Assembly (NCBI RefSeq): GCF_017094525.1 | Contig: NZ_CP064788.1 | Coordinates: 2,279,030-2,343,029 of the forward strand | DNA: 64,000 nt | Reading direction: 5' to 3' | Source: Halapricum desulfuricans | GTDB taxonomy: Archaea > Halobacteriota > Halobacteria > Halobacteriales > Haloarculaceae | In this document: positions 38,209-64,000 of the stretch, in pieces | How the letters are laid out: each line of letters starts with the position of its first letter | Position numbering within the stretch: the stretch's first letter is position 1 | The notes under the pieces: generated by a model | Told to the model about the DNA's origin: nothing | The model's input: the letters and a program-made list of their open reading frames with translations, nothing else | The model's database searches: none | Position numbers and translations under genes: made by a program

Positions 38209-38342
38209 GGGTGTCCTCACGGCCGGACGAACAAAACACTTTACTCACTGGACGACTCCCGTCATCCCGGATCTCGGGCACCTCGATACTGTCGGCTGTG
38301 CGTTTGTGGAGATTTTCGGCGAGCCGAGAGTTCGCCGAACTG

Positions 38343-38442
38343 ATGGGGATTAGCGTAGAAACCCATAGATTTCGCCCGGGAACGATGATCCGGTCACCCG
38401 ATCGGAGTGAGAGTCGCTCCGATCGGCGCCACTGATCCCTAT
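38343..38442 (+). ncRNA. 100-nt structured element, copy A (unknown family)
   Basis: Read on the plus strand, bases 1-11 (ATGGGGATTAG) pair with the last 11 (CTGATCCCTAT) using two G-U pairs. A 10-bp hairpin CCGATCGGAG/CTCCGATCGG with a 9-nt loop sits at 38398-38426. Bases 29-40 form a small UUC/GAA hairpin. It aligns without gaps to copy B (54353-54452, minus strand) at about 72 of 100 positions. It lies between two minus-strand genes but in the opposite orientation. Either an RNA gene or a small mobile repeat. Confidence 0.6.
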
Positions 38443-38514
38443 GAGTCAGCCGATGGTACGACACCGGGTCATGTACTGCCACGGGGTAGACCCCGGTCGA
38501 TTCGTGACCTCGCC

Positions 38515-54284: not shown

Positions 54285-54352
54285 ACCTGTCCCTACCCCG
54301 TGCTCGATATATAGTGTCCCCGAGCGGTTTCAGTCTCAGAAAGAGCCTACTC

Positions 54353-54452
54353 AGAGGGATTATCGTAGCCGGTCGGAGGCATTCTCACTCCGACCGGGTG
54401 GCAGAGTTCGATTCCACGGGAGAACTCTACGGGTTTCTACGATAATCCCTCT
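54353..54452 (-). ncRNA. 100-nt structured element, copy B (unknown family)
   Basis: On the minus strand a 16-bp perfect closing stem (AGAGGGATTATCGTAG with its complement) holds a three-way junction: AGAGTTC/GAACTCT (7 bp) and CCGGTCGGAG/CTCCGACCGG (10 bp, 9-nt loop). It aligns gap-free with copy A. It starts four bases after the feoC-like stop on the minus strand and ends 68 bases above the HalOD1 start. Confidence 0.6.
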
Positions 54453-54455
54453 CAA

Positions 54456-62574: not shown

Positions 62575-63222
62575 TTTCCGCGCTGTATCCGCTATGATCG
62601 CGGTCGCTCGCTCCGGTCCGGTCGGCGTCGAGGTCGTCGAGCGCCCACCGGACGATCCGGGCCTGGACGAGTCGCTGTGGGCCGACAGCCTCACCGCGCT
62701 GGACGGCGTCGATCGCGGCGGCGGCGTCGGCACGCATCTCCGTCTCAAGGGGCCGGTGGTCGGGTTCGTCCCGAACGTCGTTCAGCAGGGCTTCGAAGTC
62801 CTCCCGGAGGTCGAAACTCGCCCGCGCAGCGTTGCACCGCGAGAGCGGGAGCACGCCGACCTCCAAGACGAGTTCTTCGACGAGTTCCCAGTCGTTCTCA
62901 CAGAGATACAGCGAGACTTCACCGACGATATCCTGCCAGGCGATGGGGTCGCTGTGCTTGCACAGCTGGAGCGCCCGCGGCGGGATGTCGATCCGGGCGG
63001 TCGTCTCCGGCTCCCCGCACAGACAGCAGGGCTTCTCCCTCTTGCCGGTGTACATTCGTCGGTTTTCGGGACTGGAACGGCTTGTATTGTTCGCCCGGGA
63101 TCTCGAGACGGTTGACGGCCGAAACAAGGGTATCGTCGCCGACGGGACGAGGGCCGTCGCCGAACCGTGATCGCTCGGACCGAGTAACAACGGTTTTGTC
63201 GCCCCCGGCGGCTACCACCTGT

Positions 63223-64000
63223 ATGAACGTCGACGAGCGACTCGAGTTGGCGACCCGCCACACCCAGGAGGTCGTCACCGAAGAGGAGTTGCGGACGCTG
63301 CTGGACGAACGCGACGAACCGCGGGCCTACATCGGCTACGCCCCGACCGGCGAGATGCACATCGGACACTTCACGACGATGCGCAAACTCGCCGACTTCC
63401 TCGATGCGGGGCTGGACGTGACGGTCCTGATCGCCGATCTGCACGCCCACCTCGACGACGAGAAGAGCCCGTTCGATCTGCTCGAGGCGCGCGCGGCGTA
63501 CTACGAGGAGACGATCCGAGCGATGATCGACGCCGCCGGAGCCGATCCCGAGGGCGTTGCGTTCGTCCGCGGCCGCGAGTTCGAACTCGACGAGGAGTAC
63601 TCGCTGGAGCTGCTTCGGATGGCCGCCGAGACGACGATCTCGCGCGCCCAGCGCGCCGCAAGCGAGGTCGTCCGCGAGTCCGACTCGCCGAAACTCGGCG
63701 GGCTGCTGTACCCGCTGATGCAGACGCTCGACGTGGACGCGCTGGACGCCGACATCGCCTACGGCGGGGTCGACCAGCGCGGCATCTACATGCTCTCCCG
63801 CGAGATCCTGCCCGACCACGGCGGCGACGCGCCGATCTGTCTGTTCGCCCCGCTGCTGTCGGGGCTCTCGGGCGGGAAGATGAGCGCCTCCGAGGAGGCC
63901 TCGAAGGTCAACCTCAACGACTCGCCCGAGGCGGTCGCCGAGAAACTGAACGACGCCTACTGCCCGATGGGCGAACGCGAGGACAACGGCGTCCTGGAGT
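63223..64000 (+). CDS. tyrS: Tyrosyl-tRNA synthetase (5' part, cut by window end)
   Basis: 259 complete codons of a class I synthetase remain open at the window end. HIGH is at 46-49 (GEMHIGHF) and KMSAS lies in SGGKMSAS near residue 225. The VLIADLHAHLDDEK and YPLMQTLDVDALDADIAYGGVDQR segments match archaeal TyrRS rather than TrpRS. The start is ATG at 63223, with GGTTTTGT about 30 bases above. The C-terminal about 80 residues are missing. Confidence 0.93.
   Translation, partial: MNVDERLELATRHTQEVVTEEELRTLLDERDEPRAYIGYAPTGEMHIGHFTTMRKLADFLDAGLDVTVLIADLHAHLDDEKSPFDLLEARAAYYEETIRAMIDAAGADPEGVAFVRGREFELDEEYSLELLRMAAETTISRAQRAASEVVRESDSPKLGGLLYPLMQTLDVDALDADIAYGGVDQRGIYMLSREILPDHGGDAPICLFAPLLSGLSGGKMSASEEASKVNLNDSPEAVAEKLNDAYCPMGEREDNGVLE

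Follow-up and report, generated by a model that had tools for sequence, protein, structure and literature searches.

A family of MITE-like elements of about 99 bp in Halapricum and other Halobacteriales

Two similar 100-nt sequences in a 64-kb window of the Halapricum desulfuricans genome (the whole stretch of DNA analyzed here) had initially been annotated with two readings, a structured RNA family or a mobile repeat. Our main finding is that both are very probably non-autonomous DNA elements of the cut-and-paste type (MITEs), about 99 bp long. Target duplications, empty sites, a nested insertion and bursts of copies all speak for the mobile repeat; the structured RNA is not supported. By comparison of sequences, we show that the family has moved, where its borders lie and that it duplicates its target.

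Two copies in the window and their relatives in Halapricum

Both sequences are present as described, at 38343-38442 on the plus strand (copy A) and 54353-54452 on the minus strand (copy B), and they align without gaps at 72/100 identical positions. The two blocks reported as invariant, CGTAGAAACCC (positions 12-22) and CGGAGTGAGA (61-70), are the same in A and B. This similarity is not a matter of chance, since the runner-up 100-mer of the window shares only 46/100 identities with copy A; BLAST aligns 95 bases of A and B at 77% identity, with a genome-wide E of 1.8e-12. The similarity of the 100-nt unit therefore stands, but its borders do not: when all copies are printed with their flanks, the element runs from TAGGGATTAGCGTAG to CTACGCTAATCCCTA, each end lying one base inside the 100-nt unit. 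The features are as follows.

38287..38318, plus strand: cut-off copy end from a second MITE family of 78 bp (TACTGTCGGCTGT...), adjoining copy A
38341..38343, no strand: TGA, left half of the target duplication flanking copy A
38344..38441, plus strand: MITE copy A, 98 bp, bounded by terminal inverted repeats (TIRs) and by identical flanking 3-bp TGA; eight related places in the genome
38344..38358, plus strand: left TIR of copy A (TGGGGATTAGCGTAG), from a 22-copy alignment
38398..38426, plus strand: inner hairpin of copy A, a predicted fold, characteristic of the copies in Halapricum, several of which have lost it
38427..38441, minus strand: right TIR of copy A, degenerate, ending in CACTGATCCCTA, from the 22-copy alignment
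38442..38444, no strand: TGA, right half of the target duplication flanking copy A
54351..54353, no strand: TCA (plus strand), target duplication flanking copy B
54354..54451, minus strand: MITE copy B, 98 bp; same site occupied in the sister genome G001 (L030)
54369..54397, minus strand: inner hairpin of copy B, a predicted fold
54452..54454, no strand: TCA (plus strand), target duplication flanking copy B
63081..63095, minus strand: empty site of the G001 copy L019, clean, with one triplet (target triplet 63086-63088)

All neighboring genes are on the minus strand, so that copy A is antisense and copy B sense to them. Copy A is flanked by a gene for a FAD-dependent geranylgeranyl-reductase-like protein and by a PhoU-domain gene. 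On either side of copy B are a HalOD1-domain gene and a FeoC-like gene (Pfam match slightly below cut-off), the latter downstream of feoB. Read on its own strand, the duplicated target is TGA for both copies.

Eight clear places of the family, full or partial, lie on the single contig of the host genome (2.89 Mb), and among close relatives there are nine places in G001, seven in Halapricum hydrolyticum (G002), and one each in G003 and G005. They sit at unrelated loci and in both orientations. The unit is 97-99 bp long, and copies across genera measure 97-101 bp, with a subgroup of 108-109 bp; like MITEs in general, it is short and has no coding capacity. Its 15-bp terminal inverted repeats read TAGGGATTA(G/T)CGTAG...CTACG(C/A)TAATCCCTA, and 94.5% of the TIR cells are paired in 40 divergent copies, as expected of a MITE.

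A third short inverted-repeat family (TAGTGACCGTTGTAAG...) often adjoins the 99-bp copies, for example in the flanks of L007, L021, L015 and L013, and one locus (L068, G003:C1:2712958) is an apparent chimera in which the ends of the 99-bp family surround a core of the third family.

Target duplication and insertion history

An identical triplet flanks 15/22 full Halapricum copies; 20,000 permutations of the right flanks gave 4.8 on average and never more than 13. In other genera the proportion is 54/67 elements (permuted mean 21.3, maximum 34, with 20,000 permutations), and the triplet is mostly TGA or TCA. In these 67 elements the triplet is usually preceded by C and followed by G, hence a target of CTSAG. 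No four-base duplication was present in either set (22 Halapricum and 67 other-genera copies): the target-site duplication has the fixed length, here 3 bp, that characterizes MITEs.

The family also displays insertion polymorphism. The joined flanks of the G001 copy L019 match the window as a single piece (62868-63304), and the junction, which reads GGCGAAC-AGT-[element]-AGT-ACAAG in G001, is GGCGAAC-AAT-ACAAG in the window; the same site is also empty in H. hydrolyticum. Copy L004 of the host genome is missing in G005, its ends being decayed with no clean duplication left. Another MITE, carrying its own TGA duplication, is nested in the family copy L024. Copy B occupies the same position in G001, which means that its insertion predates the split from that genome. 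As for copy A, no clear empty-site ortholog was found among the relatives, because its neighborhood is rearranged there, and for L013, L020 and L064, whose empty sites were sought across distant species, the intergenic DNA is too diverged to align.

These observations bear on the possibility that the repeats spread by recombination or replication slippage, as REP-like or SMR-like sequences that make no target duplication. The lack of a transposase partner (see below) would fit such a process, and so would the precedent of the SMRs of Haloquadratum, TIR elements of about 110 bp whose mobilization is unknown (PMC3119063). Most copies, however, have precise 3-bp duplications, and the empty site keeps a single target triplet; we consider this explanation highly improbable.

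Spread across the order and the RNA reading

The exact 15-mer TAGGGATTAKCGTAG occurs in 11/146 genomes of the taxonomic family, and in 35/392 genomes drawn from the Halobacteriales, representing 18/95 genera; the reversed pattern gave 0 matches in these 392 genomes. Most matches form inverted pairs with a spacing of 98-101 bp, or of 108-109 bp in one family. Besides the ends, the extracted elements share a left motif nAGTTCATAGnTTYCC, a middle GAACCGAGACACnGnGTC and a right CCTCCGGTTGG. Viral contigs contained no exact TIR pair, and a phage collection gave no match.

Core identity is 0.50 between genomes and 0.74 within them, reaching 0.97 in G245 and 0.95 in G415. The nearest neighbor of a copy is in its own genome for 40/65 copies (permuted maximum 13). 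As read from sequence identity, this pattern indicates repeated local bursts within genomes. Besides the missing partner transposon and the lack of a clear empty-site ortholog for copy A, one further feature counts against the MITE explanation: the core is homologous and of near-constant length across the order, a conservation beyond what a passive filler needs.

Could the stems be those of a non-coding structured RNA, acting in cis or in trans and under selection at the RNA level? Copies A and B do fold strongly (-42.8 kcal/mol, z = -3.3, and -57.8 kcal/mol, z = -8.5, respectively), and the alignment of 22 Halapricum copies (A2) has a 37-pair fold that is formed in 89% of the cells, lies above all shuffles and includes compensated changes. 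The compensated changes named in the initial annotation are also real. These, however, like most of those in A2, are in the column pairs 10/91 and 59/82, which split two subfamilies of 10/22 sequences each, so that they possibly record single events. Across A3, an alignment of 40 copies from outside Halapricum, not one pair of the end stem has changed in both partners, while 33 cells are broken; each end is thus kept as a sequence, in the manner of a protein-binding site. Once the ends are removed, the cores have a mean z of -1.66 in Halapricum, but of +0.43 in 67 other copies, and no common fold of the whole alignment was found; the covariation expected of a structured RNA throughout the order is therefore lacking. 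Nor does Rfam recognize a structured RNA family, as only a tRNA matches in the window.

The inner hairpin has been lost, between two CCGATCGG palindromes, in the Halapricum copies L004, L007, L019, L021, L025 and L028, and such short copies are consistent with deletion by slippage. Judged by their flanks, L014 (G005) and L028 (G001) are one insertion, and inspection by eye shows that the hairpin is kept in the former and lost in the latter. The hairpins arise from the inverted repeats and from an inner palindrome specific to Halapricum, and they are not evidence for an RNA. Since the end stem is uncompensated, the cores outside Halapricum fold no better than shuffled sequences and no common fold was found, an RNA role for the family appears unlikely; with mobility demonstrated by target duplications and empty sites, selection on RNA stems has in our opinion very little chance of being the explanation.

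A narrower alternative is that an element, still mobile in origin, has been co-opted locally; downstream of the feo genes, for example, it might terminate transcription or act as a hairpin that stabilizes the mRNA. Copy B comes immediately after the stop codon of the FeoC-like gene, its fold is very strong, and two species retain it at one and the same site. Against this, no T-run terminator pattern was found for copy A, and one old insertion would be expected in two related species even without function. Such a local role for a single copy is conceivable, but we hold it to be unlikely.

Transposase and relation to known elements

A transposase supplied in trans would most likely recognize the 15-bp terminal inverted repeats; the element would then be inserted at CTSAG-like sites, and repair of staggered cuts would leave the 3-bp duplication. 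The enzyme, its chemistry and any present activity we infer. In five copy-rich genomes, the listed places include no two ends, at up to two mismatches, that enclose a gene at a distance of 0.5-3 kb from each other. The transposons of the genomes and transposase groups examined, which are not an exhaustive set, include no autonomous element sharing these ends. Several candidate parents were rejected. ISH8-type (IS4) elements have different ends (CATCCGTCTTTAGCTAAG), as do those of ISH3 type (ends near CAGT...GTACTTCCCAA), and the ends also differ in the multi-copy DDE_Tnp_1 transposons of four copy-rich genomes, compared as pairs with comparable copies. L161 and L211, unpaired TIR matches that might have marked an autonomous element, turned out to be part of another dispersed repeat, about 95 bp long, which has neither a transposase nor a second inverted end.

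This haloarchaeal repeat (TAGGRATTAGCGTMGATCCTCATACTTTCCAG...GTGCAAGACTTAGAGGAT...TCAGCA), seen at L161, L211, L268, L269, L270, L272-L274 and L277, shares its first 13-15 bases with the MITE end, lacks the second inverted end and is present on several megaplasmids.

The family whose cut-off end adjoins copy A is a second Halapricum MITE family, 77-78 bp long with TACTGCCGGCTGTA ends. It is present in about 45 near-identical copies in the host genome (L308-L327 labelled), and must thus have been recently active. Its inverted ends start with TA, and a 3-bp TNA duplication accompanies 19/20 copies examined, so that an enzyme with such a habit was lately active in this genome. The two families are alike in having inverted ends that start with TA and a 3-bp duplication, but differ in the sequences of ends and core. 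The ISH8-type IS4 transposon L182 (G000:C1:2844057-2845547) is not the parent of the 78-bp family: it has ends of its own (CATCCGTCTTTAGC...) and is inserted inside a MITE copy, where it imitates an autonomous parent.

Known haloarchaeal MITEs, such as ISH2 (moved by ISH8), MITEHsal and the HqIRS of Haloquadratum, are short, with TIRs, a target duplication and no transposase of their own (PMC3119063, PMC10264941). The 99-bp family resembles them in all these respects. Known families, however, usually come with a partner transposon whose ends are related, and none was found here; of the structural attributes of MITEs, ends shared with an autonomous transposon are the one not seen among the genomes and transposase groups searched. 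It further differs in its 15-bp ends conserved throughout the order, its 3-bp duplication and its length of only about 99 bp. In size and in the lack of a partner it resembles SMR-A of Haloquadratum walsbyi (HqIRS42, 43 and 55), a repeat of about 110 bp in many copies, with prominent inverted ends unlike those of known transposons (PMC3119063). SMR-A is reported to insert into PATE/IS605 palindromes without target duplication (PMC3119063), and this description sets it apart from the 99-bp family, whose 3-bp duplications arise at CTSAG sites of ordinary intergenic DNA.

We tentatively propose, as a scenario that could well prove wrong, that the family is an ancient MITE lineage of near-constant length and homologous core across the Halobacteriales, with no autonomous partner left. 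It would be moved by a transposase encoded away from such ends, possibly domesticated or host-encoded, that also serves other TA-ended families with 3-bp duplications in the same genomes. The end sequence is absent from the literature searched, where no paper connects Halapricum with MITEs, although it may have been named previously in ISfinder or in the Haloquadratum supplement (PMC3119063).

The 99-bp family is an additional MITE family, distributed across many haloarchaeal genera and unannotated in the records examined. Its analysis explains away a tempting call of a new RNA, as the pairing ends and the palindromes that a mobile element carries mimic RNA covariation when only two copies or one genus are compared. 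The missing transposase is now a concrete, testable problem, tied to the question of what mobilizes the short, parentless repeats of Haloquadratum.
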